A stretch of DNA of 36,584 bases, taken from Sulfurovum sp. FS08-3 (GTDB lineage: Bacteria; Campylobacterota; Campylobacteria; Campylobacterales; Sulfurovaceae). Where the stretch lies: positions 1 through 36,584 of the forward strand of contig JQIS01000002.1 of NCBI GenBank assembly GCA_000830175.1, written 5' to 3'. A program made the translations under genes and the position numbers. This document shows, piece after piece, positions 13,177 through 19,917 of the stretch. The notes under the pieces are model-generated. The model saw nothing but the letters and a program-made list of their open reading frames with translations, was not told the DNA's origin and did no database searches. Numbering within the stretch: the first letter of the stretch is position 1; every line of letters starts with the position of its first letter.

Positions 13177-13782
13177 TTATTTTTTTGCATCTATCTCTTC
13201 AATTTCAAGCTTATCAAGCAAAAGAGGTTTAGCAAACTCCATAATCTTTTCAATTTGTCGCTCTTGACCCTCGATAGTTAGTCTGTACTTTGGGGGAAGT
13301 TTGGGGGTGGTCTGTGGGGTTTCGATGTTTTTGCTGTTTTTGTAGATTCTTGAGACGCACATACCGCAAACATGGACTCGATTATTCGCCTCTTTGGCAC
13401 ACTCTTGGCGAATCTCTTGTATATTGGGAGCTTTGGAGTACTCGATGGTAGAGCCGTGTTTGCAAATGCGACTGTTGAGATTTTCTTGATCAAGACAAAG
13501 TTCACCTTTGTGGCACTCGTAGAGATGCCAAATGGGCTTTTTTTTGTTTTCATTTTTGTAGAGGTGCGAGATGCAGATACTGCAAATATTGGTTGTATGG
13601 GCAATTTTGGCAATGTGTATCCGCATATCTTCAAGACTTCGGGTTTTGAGATAATCTTTAAACTCGACCGAGGTTAATGAATCGCTACCGCAAATGACTT
13701 TCATATCATCAATACCCTCATAGATATGGAGTGTTTTGGTACTTTTGTCGTTTCTCTCTTTTAATAAATATTTCGTCATCAT
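13177..13782 (-). CDS. Unknown protein with a duplicated cysteine module
   Basis: Not recognised. The 201-residue product holds two copies of a module. Each starts with HIYEG/HLYEC (19-23, 86-90) and ends with a CxxC followed by S-x-x-YKN: CSICISHLYKN (67-77) and CGMCVSRIYKN (139-149). Other cysteines are C31, C90, C96, C107 and C128. The pattern suggests two metal (probably zinc) ribbons, perhaps for nucleic acid or protein contact. The C-terminal 40 residues are charged and helical. AGGAG lies about 9 nt before the first of two ATGs. It diverges from the WYL regulator across 245 nt and may share its control. There is no signal peptide. Confidence 0.7.
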   Translation of the reverse strand: MMTKYLLKERNDKSTKTLHIYEGIDDMKVICGSDSLTSVEFKDYLKTRSLEDMRIHIAKIAHTTNICSICISHLYKNENKKKPIWHLYECHKGELCLDQENLNSRICKHGSTIEYSKAPNIQEIRQECAKEANNRVHVCGMCVSRIYKNSKNIETPQTTPKLPPKYRLTIEGQERQIEKIMEFAKPLLLDKLEIEEIDAKK

Positions 13783-14027: not shown

Positions 14028-15041
14028 ATGTCCGCACCTCGCCAACTTCTCAAATCCATCCCGCTAGATACCAAAGAGACGGTATTGGAGTATCTCAAAG
14101 CTCATGGCTCTACCAAAAGCAACACCCCCTATCTCTACCGTGCCATTGGCAAGAGCAGTTATCGGGGATTGGAGGATGTTTTTCGCTATCTTGAAGAGGT
14201 AGAGAGTATCTTGATCAAAGAAAAAATAGGCAAAGCCTACTATTGGCGACTCAAAGACAAAGACCTTATCAATGAAAAGCTCTCCCAAAAAGATGCGATT
14301 AGTCTTAGCTACGCCATAGAGCTAAACAAAGAGGAGTTTAGCCCCGACACCATCAAGACGCTCAAAAAGATGTTTCAATCCAACAGCAAAACCTTGCTGG
14401 GCAATCTCTCTATATCCGAAGAGCTTGACAATGAGAAGATGAACGGTTTTTACAATACCCTCACCTATGCCATAGAGGAGCATCTCTATCTCAAGCTTGA
14501 ATTTCTCTACGCTTTGCCCCATTTTACTTTCTATAAAGTTAAGCCTATCAAAATCATCTTTGTGAGCAACAACTGGTATCTAGCCTTTGAGTATCAAGAG
14601 CAAAGAAAGAGGCGTTATCAGTTTGGACGACTTGCCTTTATCAAAAAGATAGAGTTTTGCAAAGATCACCGCTACTCCACCAAAAACCGCTTTAAGCTTG
14701 ATTTTGAGCAATATATCAACTTTTTGGAAAACGATGTGCAAAACGCCATGACGCTCTACGACGTAGCACGACAAAAAGCCATCATTCGAGCTACTCCCAA
14801 TGTGGCACGTTACTTCAAATCCGATATGAAAAAGGTACTACCCTCACAAAAATTTATCCAAGAGTGCGAGAATGGAAGCGTACTCTTTAGCCTAGACTAT
14901 ACCCAATCTATAGAGATACTGCCACTTATCCAAAAGTGGCTACCCGACCTTATCATTGTCCAACCCAAAGAGTTACGAGAGGAGTATATTGCCAAATTGG
15001 AGCAAACACTTCAAAATCTTACCAAAGAGAGCCTCTTTTAG
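14028..15041 (+). CDS. WYL-domain transcriptional regulator
   Basis: A 337-residue regulator. Residues 14-80 look like a winged helix DNA-binding domain (TKETVLEYLKAHG... YLYRAIGKSS). The WYL domain lies at about 145-215 and contains the name-giving residues WYL (183-185) with the basic QRKRRYQFGRL stretch. A WCX-type dimerisation domain follows (about 255-337, ATPNVARYFK... WLPDLIIVQP). WYL proteins control many phage-defence and CRISPR loci and may sense nucleic-acid ligands; here that role is inferred from position, being first in a rightward series that leads into cas2-cas1-cas2 and the array. Confidence 0.85.
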   Translation: MSAPRQLLKSIPLDTKETVLEYLKAHGSTKSNTPYLYRAIGKSSYRGLEDVFRYLEEVESILIKEKIGKAYYWRLKDKDLINEKLSQKDAISLSYAIELNKEEFSPDTIKTLKKMFQSNSKTLLGNLSISEELDNEKMNGFYNTLTYAIEEHLYLKLEFLYALPHFTFYKVKPIKIIFVSNNWYLAFEYQEQRKRRYQFGRLAFIKKIEFCKDHRYSTKNRFKLDFEQYINFLENDVQNAMTLYDVARQKAIIRATPNVARYFKSDMKKVLPSQKFIQECENGSVLFSLDYTQSIEILPLIQKWLPDLIIVQPKELREEYIAKLEQTLQNLTKESLF

Positions 15042-15097: not shown

Positions 15098-15616
15098 ATG
15101 AAAGCTAAAATAATTTTCTATTGGATGTTGATTGGTTTGGTCATTTCCCCGTTTCACTATGCATCGGGCGGATATAAGTATCGCATTGATAGAACCAGAG
15201 CGTCGTTTATTGGTTCGGCCTATGGTGAGGCTTTGCGGTGGCCATTTTACTTTTTGATGAGTAGTACTGCTAGAGGTAACAGTGAGGTTGATGGCACTGA
15301 CAATAAGAGCATTGAACTCTCTCTCGTACGCATTGTGCTAGAGCGTGTTGCGTGGGAAGATATAAATGCTGGAGAGGTATTGCTTGAATCTATAGGGCAA
15401 TGTTTCCTAAGTGAATATCGCAAAAGTTTTAATGGAAGCAAACCTGATATCAATTGGCTTAAAGTAGATATAAGTACACCGCTGACTCCACAAGAGGAGC
15501 AGATACGTGACAAGCTCCTAAAAGAGCTTAACGGTAATGATTTTGCGGATATTGTCAAAAAAGGTGCAAAATGTCGTTATGAGAACTATAAAGCCTCAAA
15601 ATCAGATGATAGTTGA
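15098..15616 (+). CDS. Unknown membrane-associated protein coupled to cas2
   Basis: Not recognised. A 172-residue product beginning MKAKIIFYWMLIGLVIS, with a hydrophobic segment at about 5-20 (signal anchor or uncleaved signal) and a second weaker one near 48-56 (LRWPFYFLMSS). The rest is soluble and mixed alpha-helical, with cysteines near 107 and 159 (IGQCFLSE, GAKCRYE). I chose the ATG at 15098 because TAGGAG lies 5 nt before it; an in-frame ATG at 15083 has no ribosome site. The stop codon overlaps the cas2 start (TGATG), so it is translated with the adaptation genes. An envelope location for a CRISPR operon protein is odd. Confidence 0.65.
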   Translation: MKAKIIFYWMLIGLVISPFHYASGGYKYRIDRTRASFIGSAYGEALRWPFYFLMSSTARGNSEVDGTDNKSIELSLVRIVLERVAWEDINAGEVLLESIGQCFLSEYRKSFNGSKPDINWLKVDISTPLTPQEEQIRDKLLKELNGNDFADIVKKGAKCRYENYKASKSDDS

Positions 15617-15885
15617 TGATGCAAAACTTTTTAGTAGCCTACGATATATACAATCCAAAAAGACTCTATAAAGTACGCAAACTGCTCTATAGCTACGCCC
15701 TATCTGGGCAAAAATCGGCTCTTGAGATGCCTCTAACGCACATTTTGTGCCGTGAAATGATACAGCAACTTGAGCCTTTGATTGAGAATGAAGATAGGGT
15801 GAACGTTATCAAAATCGTTGGCAAACCGATTTTATTGGGCAAGGCGGAGACTTTGGAGTATCATAAGGGAGTGATTATTGTATGA
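15616..15885 (+). CDS. cas2: CRISPR-associated Cas2 (first copy)
   Basis: An 89-residue ferredoxin-fold Cas2. The first strand FLVAYDI carries the family Asp (D10), followed by the basic helix NPKRLYKVRKLL, then YALSGQKSALE in place of the usual YGxRVQxSVFE. Cas2 dimers bridge two Cas1 dimers in the integrase. The ATG at 15616 overlaps the previous stop by one base, and a second ATG follows directly. The stop overlaps the cas1 start (ATGA). It differs clearly from the second Cas2 downstream (roughly a third identical by eye), so it is not a recent duplicate. Confidence 0.88.
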   Translation: MMQNFLVAYDIYNPKRLYKVRKLLYSYALSGQKSALEMPLTHILCREMIQQLEPLIENEDRVNVIKIVGKPILLGKAETLEYHKGVIIV

Positions 15886-16757
15886 GACTGGCTATTATTG
15901 ATCAAAAAGATATTACTATCAAGATAGACAATGGAGCTATCAAGCTTCCTATGCACAATATCCCTCTCAATCTCATTGATATTGTGTTGCTCAACCATCA
16001 AGCCACACTTCACACCAACGATATACTCAAACTCACAAAAGCCAATCTATCCATACTCATTATCGCCTCCAATAACAACCATATCGCACTCATTTCAAGT
16101 GCCAATAGCAAAAATGCAGAGCTTAAACTCGCTCAATATCGCTCTTTGGAATACAAAATGGAGTTTGCTCACTATTTTTTGAGACAAAAGTTCACCCATC
16201 ACCATGCGCAACTCAAAGCCAATGGTATGGATATTCAACTCGATTTAGCATTGAATCATCTTAAAATTGCCAAGAGTATTGATGAGATGATGGGAATAGA
16301 GGGGGCGTTTGCACGAGACTATTTTGAGAAGTTTTTTACTCTCATTTCTCAAAACTTTCACAAATCCCAACGCTCCAAAAAGCCACCACTTGACCCACTC
16401 AATGCAATGCTCTCATTTTGGTATTCGCTTATTTATAATATTATCACTATCAAGCTACTCTCTCATGGATTTGAGCCTTCTATTGGCTATTTGCATCAAG
16501 CCTTTAGGAGACACAATGCTCTATCATCGGATATTTTAGAAATTTTTCGTGCTGCTATCAATCAAGCAGTTTTGGGTATATTCAAAAATGAACTCCTTGA
16601 AATCAAAGACTTTAGCTACAAAAATGGCGGTGTCTATCTCAAATACGAGGGGCGTAAAAAAATATGGAAAGAGTTTGTGGCTTTTGTGGAGATACTCAAA
16701 CCGCAAATTGACCATGAGATAGCAACCATAAGAAAGATGATTGATGAAAAAATATGA
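15882..16757 (+). CDS. cas1: CRISPR-associated endonuclease/integrase Cas1
   Basis: A 291-residue Cas1, within the family's usual length. The N-terminal beta domain (1-75) is followed by the all-helical catalytic domain. Metal ligands are E140 (MGIEGAFARDYF), H205 (GYLHQAFRR) and an acidic residue of ALSSDILEIFR (D217 or E220). It catalyses integration of new spacers at the leader end together with Cas2. The start overlaps cas2 by 4 nt, and the end overlaps the second cas2 by 14 nt. All catalytic positions are intact, so activity is likely. No reverse transcriptase or Cas4 fusion is present. Confidence 0.95.
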   Translation: MRLAIIDQKDITIKIDNGAIKLPMHNIPLNLIDIVLLNHQATLHTNDILKLTKANLSILIIASNNNHIALISSANSKNAELKLAQYRSLEYKMEFAHYFLRQKFTHHHAQLKANGMDIQLDLALNHLKIAKSIDEMMGIEGAFARDYFEKFFTLISQNFHKSQRSKKPPLDPLNAMLSFWYSLIYNIITIKLLSHGFEPSIGYLHQAFRRHNALSSDILEIFRAAINQAVLGIFKNELLEIKDFSYKNGGVYLKYEGRKKIWKEFVAFVEILKPQIDHEIATIRKMIDEKI

Positions 16758-17022
16758 TTTTGTGATAGGATACGATATATCTTCGCCCAAACGCCTTGCA
16801 AAGGTATCAAAATATCTTGAATGCTACGCTATGCGTATCCAAAAATCTATTTTTTTGTATCCAAATGTCTCCAAAATAGAACTTAAGGCTAGGATAGACG
16901 AGCTTACGAGTCTAATCGATGCCAACCATGATGATGTGCGTATCTATCAAATAGACACAAAACACTCTCTATCTATCAATAGTGCGATTGATTTGCAAAA
17001 CCCCACTATCATCAAAGGCTAA
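16744..17022 (+). CDS. cas2: CRISPR-associated Cas2 (second copy)
   Basis: A 92-residue Cas2 with the more canonical sequence: FVIGYDISSPKRLAKVSKYL (metal Asp D11) and YAMRIQKSIFLYP, matching the YGxRVQxSVFE motif. The gene begins 14 nt inside the end of cas1; the ATG at 16744 is used because the upstream TTG would add only one residue. Having Cas2 on both sides of Cas1 allows heteromeric Cas2 dimers or two alternative integrase complexes. Which copy bridges Cas1 cannot be told from sequence. Confidence 0.92.
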   Translation: MKKYDFVIGYDISSPKRLAKVSKYLECYAMRIQKSIFLYPNVSKIELKARIDELTSLIDANHDDVRIYQIDTKHSLSINSAIDLQNPTIIKG

Positions 17023-17025
17023 AGA

Positions 17026-17388
17026 GTGCAAAACATCTACCAACAAATCGATAAGATATTTGATAATCCATCCTCCAAACGCCCTAAATGGGCGGATGAG
17101 CTTTTTGAAGAGATTCAAGAACTCAAAGCTTTGCTCAAAGCACAAACTCAACAAACTCAACAAAAGAGCAAAAATGAGAAGAGTGATGATTTTTTTGAGT
17201 TTTTAAGAGAATTTCGCAAAAATTTGCAAACCGATACCGCAAAAAGCATAGAGTATCAAGGGCAAAAGCTAGGTATCGATAGCAATGGACTGCTCTACGA
17301 CAAAGAGACTCTAGTGACACTTAGCAGACAAAAAGCCTATCTAATCTATAACTATTTCTACAAAATACAACTAAAAAATAATTTTTAG
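17026..17388 (+). CDS. Unknown 120-residue protein between cas2 and the CRISPR leader
   Basis: Not recognised. GTG start 3 nt after the cas2 stop, with AAAGG 7 nt upstream. Three parts are seen: an N-terminal amphipathic helix region (KWADELFEEIQELKALLKAQ, about 22-41), a polar Gln/Lys linker (41-54), and a C-terminal domain (55-120) with YQGQKLGIDSNGLLYDKETL and a Tyr-rich end (YLIYNYFYKI). It has no cysteines, no signal peptide and no membrane segment. Position as last gene before the leader suggests a role in spacer acquisition or leader binding; this is inference. Confidence 0.7.
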   Translation: MQNIYQQIDKIFDNPSSKRPKWADELFEEIQELKALLKAQTQQTQQKSKNEKSDDFFEFLREFRKNLQTDTAKSIEYQGQKLGIDSNGLLYDKETLVTLSRQKAYLIYNYFYKIQLKNNF

Positions 17389-17390
17389 TT
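17369..17390 (+). other. AT-only hairpin at the end of the last adaptation gene
   Basis: AACTAAAAA (17369-17377) and its complement (17382-17390) form a 9-bp stem with a 4-nt loop across the stop codon. It contains only two G-C pairs, so stability is low. It may mark the cas/leader boundary. Confidence 0.25.
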
Positions 17391-17539
17391 TCAAAAAAGT
17401 TTAGACAAAGGATTGAAAATCAAACTATTACAAAAAGTAATCTTGCTCAAAGAGAACAAAAAATCTAAACAAACTTCACTGTTTTTTCATGAAAGTTTCG
17501 CTTAAGAATACCAAAGCCCTATTTTACGCTATGTAGAGG
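17389..17539 (+). promoter_or_regulatory. CRISPR leader
   Basis: A 151-nt AT-rich, gene-free stretch between the last adaptation gene and the first repeat. That it is the leader end follows from the degenerate repeat at the other end of the array and the cas genes on this side. It holds GGATTGAAA (17410-17418), identical to nine bases near the end of the repeat, with TTACAA (17429-17434), the first bases of the repeat, 10 nt further on. No convincing -35/-10 pair was found. Confidence 0.7.
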
Positions 17540-19401
17540 GTTACAACACTGACCCGATTTTAAGGGGATTGAAACATTTAATTCTTCGTATACCTTGTCG
17601 CGCCAATACAGTTACAACACTGACCCGATTTTAAGGGGATTGAAACCAATGATTTTAGTCACATCTTCTATTTTGCTTGTAGTTACAACACTGACCCGAT
17701 TTTAAGGGGATTGAAACGGGGAATTTAACTTTCTTATTATTTCGATGAATAAGTTACAACACTGACCCGATTTTAAGGGGATTGAAACACCGAGCTCTTT
17801 CGATATAGTTATCAAGCTCCGGGTTACAACACTGACCCGATTTTAAGGGGATTGAAACCTATCATCATTTGTTCTCTTTATAATTATCGCTTTAGTTACA
17901 ACACTGACCCGATTTTAAGGGGATTGAAACATGGAGTCCCCATATCCGTAACCCTCCCCTACGGTTACAACACTGACCCGATTTTAAGGGGATTGAAACT
18001 TGAAACGTTTGTTGAATATTCCCCATTTACAAGTTACAACACTGACCCGATTTTAAGGGGATTGAAACTTCTCAACTCTGCATAAGTTGTTACACTCAAT
18101 TGTTACAACACTGACCCGATTTTAAGGGGATTGAAACACTCCTCCGAGCTCGTTACACGAGCCGGATTCGATGTTACAACACTGACCCGATTTTAAGGGG
18201 ATTGAAACCCCAATTCCTGTGTTACAGGGAAAACGGTGATACCATATTACAACACTGACCCGATTTTAAGGGGATTGAAACAAAACAAGCGCGATATTAG
18301 GCGAGGCGACTACAATTATTACAACACTGACCCGATTTTAAGGGGATTGAAACCTTAGCCTCCGCCGGTAGTGTTAACCACTGCCAGAATTACAACACTG
18401 ACCCGATTTTAAGGGGATTGAAACAAAGCCAAAATCTCTTCACGAGGCGGTGCATGATTACAACACTGACCCGATTTTAAGGGGATTGAAACCCATTCCG
18501 GACACTCCAGAGAAGTAGCTTCCCTGATTACAACACTGACCCGATTTTAAGGGGATTGAAACCCGCCATCAAAAACTATATTAACACGTCTTTTTTATTA
18601 CAACACTGACCCGATTTTAAGGGGATTGAAACTCAATATCTGTTGCGGAGTATTCATTTTCACCCTTATTACAACACTGACCCGATTTTAAGGGGATTGA
18701 AACCATCGCTATAATCTTTCAAAAGACCTTTTTTATAATTACAACACTGACCCGATTTTAAGGGGATTGAAACAAGCTACGTGGATCCCGACGGTCAATC
18801 CGCCTATATTACAACACTGACCCGATTTTAAGGGGATTGAAACATATTATCCTTTTTGGCATCAACCTTACCATTATATTACAACACTGACCCGATTTTA
18901 AGGGGATTGAAACCACAAGTTTTTCTATCCTTCTTGAATCGACAGAAAATTACAACACTGACCCGATTTTAAGGGGATTGAAACCATCCGGAAGCACCTT
19001 TTCCTCTACCTTTCTTTCGATTACAACACTGACCCGATTTTAAGGGGATTGAAACATTCCATCTTCGTTGCTGTTTAACGGAGATACAAAATTACAACAC
19101 TGACCCGATTTTAAGGGGATTGAAACGTAGTTATCACTCTATCCCCTCCGGTCTCTTCATAATTACAACACTGACCCGATTTTAAGGGGATTGAAACACA
19201 TCAACCTTATTGCCTTGTCGCACTCCCCTACATTACAACACTGACCCGATTTTAAGGGGATTGAAACAAATAATGCTTTGCTCTATCAAACTTCTCTTTT
19301 TATTACAACACTGACCCGATTTTAAGGGGATTGAAACATACTTCCAACCACCCTTGTTCCGTCATTGTAAGTTACAACACTGACCCGATTTTAAGGGGAT
19401 T
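17540..19401 (+). CRISPR. CRISPR array, 27 repeats and 26 spacers
   Basis: The 36-nt repeat starts RTTACAACACTGACCC and ends GATTTTAAGGGGATTGAAAC; spacers are 32-37 nt (repeat-to-repeat distance 68-73). Repeats begin at 17540, 17611, 17682 and so on. The inner 35 nt are identical in the first 26 copies. The first base is G in copies 1-10 and A in copies 11-26. Copy 27 (19371-19401) has G and loses the last five bases (GAAAC replaced by TGTAA). The ATTGAAAC end, read rightward, is the typical 8-nt 5' handle of crRNAs in type I-B/III-like systems. No cas6 or effector lies in the window, so processing and interference must come from elsewhere, if they occur. Confidence 0.98.
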
Positions 19402-19419
19402 TGTAAATAGGTTTTATGT

Positions 19420-19447: not shown

Positions 19448-19696
19448 ATGCAAACGATACAATTGAGTATGGATGATATGCTTGTGGATAGGGTGATGAG
19501 CTTTTTGAATCAATTGCCCAAAAATCAATTGAAGATTGATATCAAGCCTCAAGAGACTCTACCCTACGCAACAAAAGACCCCAAAAAACACAGCAGAGTC
19601 CTCAAAAGAGAGTTTGATAGCGATAGTGTCGATGAAGTAGCACTGACGCATATAAAGGATAGTGCCAAATACATTCATGAGCTTAGAAGAAAATAA
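19448..19696 (+). CDS. VapB-like antitoxin of a PIN toxin
   Basis: An 82-residue acidic/basic mixed protein starting MQTIQLSMDDMLVDRVMSFLNQLP, an N-terminus like that of many small antitoxins, followed by a linker (KPQETLPYATKDPKKHSRV) and a helical tail ending KYIHELRRK, probably the toxin-wrapping part. Assignment rests mainly on its partner: its stop codon overlaps the next start (ATAATG), and the next gene encodes the first half of a PIN domain. With the toxin truncated it would have no partner in place. Confidence 0.65.
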   Translation: MQTIQLSMDDMLVDRVMSFLNQLPKNQLKIDIKPQETLPYATKDPKKHSRVLKREFDSDSVDEVALTHIKDSAKYIHELRRK

Positions 19697-19917
19697 TGCG
19701 GTTTTTGGATAGCTGTATTGTGATTGATTATCTCAATGGCAAGATAGAGATAGATGAAAATGACAAATTAAACTACTGTATCAACTCCATTGTAGAGATG
19801 GAAGTGGTAGTAGGAGCAAAAAACAAACGAGAACTTGCAACCATCAACAAAAAAATATCCAATTTTATGATACTTGATATTGAGCAAGATATTATGGAGT
19901 CGCACGTGCGAGTTTGA
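19696..19917 (+). pseudogene. Truncated VapC-type PIN-domain toxin
   Basis: 73 residues beginning MRFLDSCIVIDYLNG, the first PIN motif with its metal Asp (D5), then SIVEMEVVVGA with the conserved Glu. Normal VapC proteins have about 130 residues; the second half, with the remaining acidic residues, is missing. The frame ends inside the 3' end of the oppositely oriented flavoprotein gene, so sequence was lost at the junction near 19.9 kb. Nuclease activity is unlikely. Confidence 0.75.

Follow-up and report, generated by a model that had tools for sequence, protein, structure and literature searches.

Two diverged Cas2 genes around a single Cas1: a CRISPR adaptation module that recurs beside type III systems and may encode an asymmetric integrase

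The canonical CRISPR integrases (I-E, II-A and I-F Cas1-2/3) share with the locus described here the E/H/D/E residues of Cas1, the Cas2 core and an array composed of leader, repeats and spacers. Those with solved structures that were considered are symmetric, and the orientation of their spacers is a problem that other systems address through Cas4, PAM sensing or fused domains. The I-F Cas1-2/3 integrase of known structure has C2 symmetry; it contains a Cas2 homodimer and both active and inactive Cas1 subunits, and must still choose an orientation, a problem stated in the same paper (PMC12259127). The present locus does not follow the canonical rule of one Cas2 per Cas1: diverged Cas2 genes lie on either side of Cas1.

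The locus is part of a 36,584-nucleotide stretch (the window) from Sulfurovum sp. FS08-3, whose genome comprises 2.54 Mb in 68 contigs. All its parts, from a WYL gene through U172, Cas2a, Cas1, Cas2b, U120 and the leader to the 27-repeat array, are on the + strand (Table 1). Re-reading of the window's ORFs bears out the gene order, strand and overlaps given in an original prediction made from the letters alone; the gene run stands as listed there, with the addition of the WYL-regulator gene ahead of U172. WYL genes are also found near related modules (e.g. L057, L058, L059, L060 and L061), and the WYL protein is a probable regulator of the module. Leader and repeat-spacer array adjoin the cas genes, as in an adaptation module. 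Among the locus proteins scanned there is no cas4, the mark of Cas4-assisted adaptation, and no reverse transcriptase domain, nor was an ORF of the latter kind read nearby. On the - strand, at 13177-13782, lies the gene of a 201-aa protein with two Cys-x2-Cys stretches, which has no family in Pfam, NCBIfam or PADLOC and is present as well in G012, the genome with the closest Cas1. Right after the array (19448-19917) come a small ORF and a short VapC/PIN-like ORF (73 aa, probably truncated); the same site in G012 carries small gene pairs that differ from these.

Table 1. Features of the dual-Cas2 locus, in window coordinates.
Feature	Position	Strand	Evidence or remarks
WYL-domain regulator gene	14028..15041	+	PADLOC WYL 3.6e-19; Pfam WCX 2.7e-8
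U172, 172 aa, N-terminal hydrophobic segment	15098..15616	+	no family matches
Cas2a, upstream Cas2 paralogue, GQ[KR]S	15619..15885 (ATG; TTG at 15613 possible)	+	PF09827 2.1e-9
Cas1	15882..16757	+	PF01867 1.4e-51; catalytic E140, H205, D217, E220
Cas2b, downstream Cas2 paralogue	16744..17022 (TTG at 16741 possible)	+	PF09827 3.9e-15
U120, helical N-part and C-terminal beta-beta-beta-alpha domain	17026..17388	+	recurs beside related modules
Leader	17389..17539	+	U120-to-first-repeat interval
Conserved leader element GAAAGTTTCGCTTAAGAATA	17491..17510	+	aligned Campylobacterota leaders
CRISPR array, 27 repeats, 26 spacers, last repeat degenerate	17540..19406	+	

Both Cas2 proteins score above the Pfam PF09827 and TIGR01573 cut-offs and, as predicted, keep the YDI-x3-KRL-x-KV core (YDIYNPKRLYKV; YDISSPKRLAKV). 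The four Cas1 residues singled out beforehand are likewise present, and they are conserved in related Cas1 proteins. U172, which had been proposed as a new adaptation factor, fared otherwise. It passes no Pfam or NCBIfam cut-off and, among 175 genomes of the same bacterial family, is found at the locus only in the window genome (G000) and in G012; one protein 30% identical to it is encoded on another contig of G014. This distribution rules it out as a module component, and it is probably a passenger outside the module. In several relatives the same position, upstream of Cas2a, is taken by a recurring pair of genes whose products, of ~150-175 aa, look coiled-coil or membrane-like by eye (e.g. 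L057:4950-5925, L062:2522-3512 and L069:10492-11482).

A search with the window Cas1 among the 175 family genomes detects Cas1 of the window clade in 16 others, at 37-98% identity. Their loci have the order Cas2a-Cas1-Cas2b; most also have U120 and an array of related repeat. When one genome per species was scanned, ten Campylobacterota loci fell into the window Cas1 clade (40-62% identity); identities of the more distant Cas1 proteins are mostly 21-36%, with a few higher values over short segments. A Cas2a-type gene precedes Cas1 at fifteen of the distant loci, which come from Pseudomonadota, Nitrospirota, Myxococcota and Planctomycetota. Cas2b follows downstream in 14 of these, and at L082 the contig ends before that point. 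In total, a single catalytic Cas1 with Cas2a before it and Cas2b after it is seen at 37 distinct loci with both Cas2 genes or their remains (23 in Campylobacterota, 14 elsewhere), one of them decayed across the module (L069, from G116) and one broken (L075). The phyla represented are Campylobacterota, Nitrospirota, Pseudomonadota, Myxococcota and Planctomycetota. The sampled loci are mostly on metagenome contigs; the Cas2-Cas1-Cas2 order is also present on plasmids of Sphaerotilus and Aeromonas isolates. None of the remaining Cas1 loci in the Cas1 tree has Cas2 on both sides. Dual Cas2 is a recurrent arrangement in several bacterial phyla, beside type III systems, and no local oddity.

The original prediction had looked to relatives for loss or decay of one Cas2. 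Within the dual-Cas2 Cas1 groups, every locus not cut by a contig end holds both genes or their remains, and neither gene has decayed alone; at G116 the module has decayed jointly. Cas2a, Cas1, Cas2b and U120 are under purifying selection, with dN/dS values (NG86, reference G092) of 0.18, 0.16, 0.17 and 0.23, respectively.

In the Cas1 tree, the dual loci of Campylobacterota form one clade (support 100), the other dual loci another (96), and the 54 single-Cas2 loci a third (98). The Cas2 tree, from a short alignment, supports the branch with all Cas2a at 100/96 and that with all Cas2b at 99/88, the rows labelled single inside these branches being cut or mis-assigned dual loci, plus L129. A quick Cas2 tree also recovers both groups (96 and 92). 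With labels set by gene position, and a motif that was spotted in these very sequences, GQ[KR]S is present in 38 of 39 Cas2a (22/22 in Campylobacterota, 16/17 elsewhere), in 0/36 Cas2b and in 0/54 single Cas2. An AU test does not reject a separate Cas2 duplication inside Campylobacterota (p 0.29); despite this, the signature argues for one origin of Cas2a. By its sequence, Cas2a is a distinct Cas2 subfamily. Two loci show another order. The gammaproteobacterial L129 (8862-11432) reads Cas2-Cas2-Cas1, followed by a reverse-transcriptase-like gene. Plasmid pALVIN01 of Allochromatium vinosum (L164:11304-13023) reads cas2-cas2-cas1; III-B genes lie further upstream, within the same stretch.

In some lineages a further protein lies between Cas1 and Cas2b. 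Nine loci encode there a protein of ~265-285 aa, Cas1b, and the start of one is seen in L082. Cas1b is homologous to Cas1 across its length (hhalign 98.9%). Its catalytic Glu is replaced in 8 of the 9, the alignment of L089 being ambiguous, and the last acidic residue is lost in all nine; the Asp is retained. Judged by these alignments, Cas1b is a Cas1 paralogue whose catalytic residues have been lost. In many Campylobacterota the same position is taken by a protein of ~80 aa, Cas1N. Its predicted model (pLDDT 92) matches Cas1 N-terminal domains in the PDB by Foldseek; the 50 matches listed consist of chains from Cas1 or CRISPR-associated proteins, one casposase and a protein from Aquifex that bears the title uncharacterized. 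The link to Cas1 by sequence alone is weak (hhalign 31%, E 5e-4). A profile search finds Cas1N in G095 and G021, gives no more than weak partial matches in G120, and does not find it in G000, G012, G014 or G092. The predicted fold suggests that Cas1N is an isolated Cas1 N-domain, and it may be a reduced Cas1b. The window lineage has neither Cas1b nor Cas1N.

U120 falls below every Pfam and NCBIfam cut-off and matches no PHROGs family. Its profile finds matches in 27 of the 175 family genomes; besides full-length U120, these include the C-terminal portions of plasmid Rep_3 initiators and phage O-like/HTH replication proteins. By hhalign the U120 C-domain scores 98.8% against the O-like initiator tails and 91% against the Rep_3 tails; three column-shuffled controls all gave 0.3% or below. 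Rep_3 and O-like initiators with a U120-type C-terminal domain, from the same bacterial family, are shown in L175-L181. The predicted U120 model has a pLDDT of 72 (about 85-89 in the C-terminal domain); a VIA-align 2 search gave no convincing fold match (best Z 3.6) and a sequence search of the PDB none. U120-like tails were not found in the phage or plasmid collections or in viral contigs. That one domain is carried by two unrelated types of initiator suggests that it docks on a replication factor common to both, and U120 probably anchors the integrase on replicating DNA or on part of the replisome. In E. coli, Cas1-Cas2 binds DNA only while replisomes advance (PMC13244154). Were U120 to dock on proteins of replication, the capture of spacers would be tied to replication by an encoded factor. 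As a predicted adaptation partner it holds up in part: it is lineage-specific and lies beside Campylobacterota modules, but it was not seen in modules outside that phylum and so is not required for the module type.

The best explanation, which we consider reasonably probable, is that Cas1, Cas2a and Cas2b form an asymmetric integrase, which U120 may connect to replicating DNA. One catalytic Cas1 would work with an obligatory pair of Cas2 proteins that diverged anciently, most likely as a Cas2a–Cas2b heterodimer bridging two Cas1 dimers. The two ends of such a complex would differ, so that its polarity could set which end of the prespacer is brought to the leader side of the repeat. The heterodimer had been raised in the original prediction, and the idea is strengthened by the findings that no uncut locus of these Cas1 groups lacks one Cas2, that neither has decayed alone and that both are under purifying selection. 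Other lineages would add Cas1 asymmetry through Cas1b or Cas1N; the window lineage would rely on Cas2 asymmetry alone.

The Cas2 core kept by both proteins and their equal constraint also agree with two alternative symmetric integrases, in which Cas1 would join a homodimer of Cas2a or one of Cas2b according to substrate or condition, e.g. spacer source; the Cas2 of the solved I-F integrase is indeed a homodimer (PMC12259127). However, strict co-inheritance, the fixed flanking of Cas1 and the joint decay at G116 fit a single machine better, and the presence of Cas1b and Cas1N at such loci also indicates an asymmetric assembly. We regard two symmetric integrases as rather unlikely. Alternatively, Cas2b alone might be the integrase subunit, Cas2b being like a lone Cas2 in motif and in its position downstream of Cas1, and Cas2a, with its distinct GQ[KR]S motif, might be a derived Cas2, e.g. 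a nuclease, a regulator or a prespacer-processing factor. Yet Cas2a retains the Cas2 core, and all intact loci seen encode it together with Cas1, which makes this division of labour quite improbable.

An asymmetric integrase of the window would insert new spacers at the leader of its array. There an AAAG...TTAAGAA-like element, common to the other Campylobacterota leaders aligned, lies shortly 5' of the first repeat. The repeats, likewise conserved, are of 36 nt and the spacers, all distinct, of 32-37 nt. Repeats 1-10 and 27 begin with G and repeats 11-26 with A, a block-wise change along the array as leader-end addition, with copying of the leader-side repeat, would give. The distinct spacers and block-wise repeat variants are indirect signs that the module may acquire spacers in vivo. 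The spacers have no match in phage and plasmid collections, nor do two exact spacer patterns in viral contigs. In G012, whose Cas1 is 98% identical, a single repeat follows the leader; the array is either labile or collapsed in assembly. The source genome has another array with the window's repeat, at one end of contig C10 (L016:18213-18553), and its trailer resembles the one after the single repeat in G012.

Neither an effector nor Cas6 adjoins the window locus. There is no Cas10 with RAMP proteins there, and RAMP matches in the genome fall only on contig C62. C62 encodes a second Cas1 and a third Cas2, together with Cas3 and two Cas10 that match III-B and III-C models; Cas6, Cas8, Cas7, Cas5 and Cas4 were read by eye, and the array has about 109 repeats of a sequence different from the window's. 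The C62 locus is a I-B plus III-B/C system with its own Cas1 and Cas2. Of the 39 bases of its first spacer, beside Cas1, 35 match the locus's own Cas10c gene, on the strand of the gene (L003:14519-14557 and L003:10209-10243). Relatives of the window module do have Cas10 and RAMP genes in the locus, and of the 16 family genomes with window-clade Cas1, 11 have RAMP genes. Effectors typed beside related modules are III-A (L085, L093), III-B (L089) and III-D (L058, L065), with Cas6 typed at L067; the typing covers these proteins, the neighbours of other loci being judged only from ORF order. III-D genes are next to the module in G014, of the same genus as the source, and III-B genes adjoin that of the Aeromonas plasmid; the stretch read of the Sphaerotilus plasmid has Cas2-Cas1-Cas2 and no annotated effector.

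The predicted adaptation-only character of the operon thus applies to the window locus, but not to the genome, with its C62 effectors, or to relatives with adjoining III-A, III-B or III-D genes. It is a local feature, since the typed neighbouring effectors are all type III and the genome holds the C62 system. Interference would come from elsewhere, most likely from C62 type III complexes using window crRNAs. The least probable reading is that the window locus has lost a type III effector and survives only as a non-functional relic: the lack of an adjoining effector or Cas6 (compared with the III-D genes in G014) and the near-empty array in G012 speak for it, but all frames are intact and under purifying selection against G012 and G092, the leader element is conserved, the 26 spacers are distinct and type III complexes are encoded on C62.

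More tentatively, and as a possibility rather than an expectation, the separate elements can be combined into one heteromeric integrase, with built-in polarity, in which Cas2a–Cas2b would bridge Cas1 dimers, Cas1b or Cas1N would enter in other lineages as a dedicated non-catalytic subunit and, in Campylobacterota, U120 would steer capture to replicating DNA by means of a C-terminal domain borrowed from replication initiators of mobile elements. The recurrent pairing of two unlike Cas2 proteins around one Cas1 suggests that some of the machines that write CRISPR memory consist of unlike halves, not symmetric as described so far. We found no description of the Cas2a/Cas2b pairing in the open-access literature, though an earlier account may exist elsewhere.

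Among known systems, types III-A, III-B and III-D are close in gene neighbourhood, related modules adjoining Cas10, Csm/Cmr or III-D RAMP genes, Csx1 and Cas6. However, type III modules with a single Cas2 have one Cas1 and one Cas2, whereas the window locus has two Cas2 and no adjoining effector. RT-Cas1/Cas2 modules likewise represent type III adaptation with extra parts, and L129 has a reverse-transcriptase-like gene; the window module has no reverse transcriptase, its Cas2 being duplicated instead. An Antarctic soil type III contig listed in passing as 'cas2-cas1-cas1-RT-csm3gr7...' resembles the Cas1b loci in having two cas1 in one type III operon, but one cas2 is listed, and neither a catalytically degenerate Cas1 nor paired Cas2 is described there (PMC11742911). 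The I-F complex is two-fold symmetric about a Cas2 homodimer (PMC12259127), unlike the two diverged Cas2 genes that flank Cas1 in the window. The asymmetry that the C2-symmetric I-F integrase lacks would be provided here by unlike Cas2 halves and elsewhere, in the lineages that have one, also by a non-catalytic Cas1; such a module makes intrinsic integrase asymmetry directly testable.
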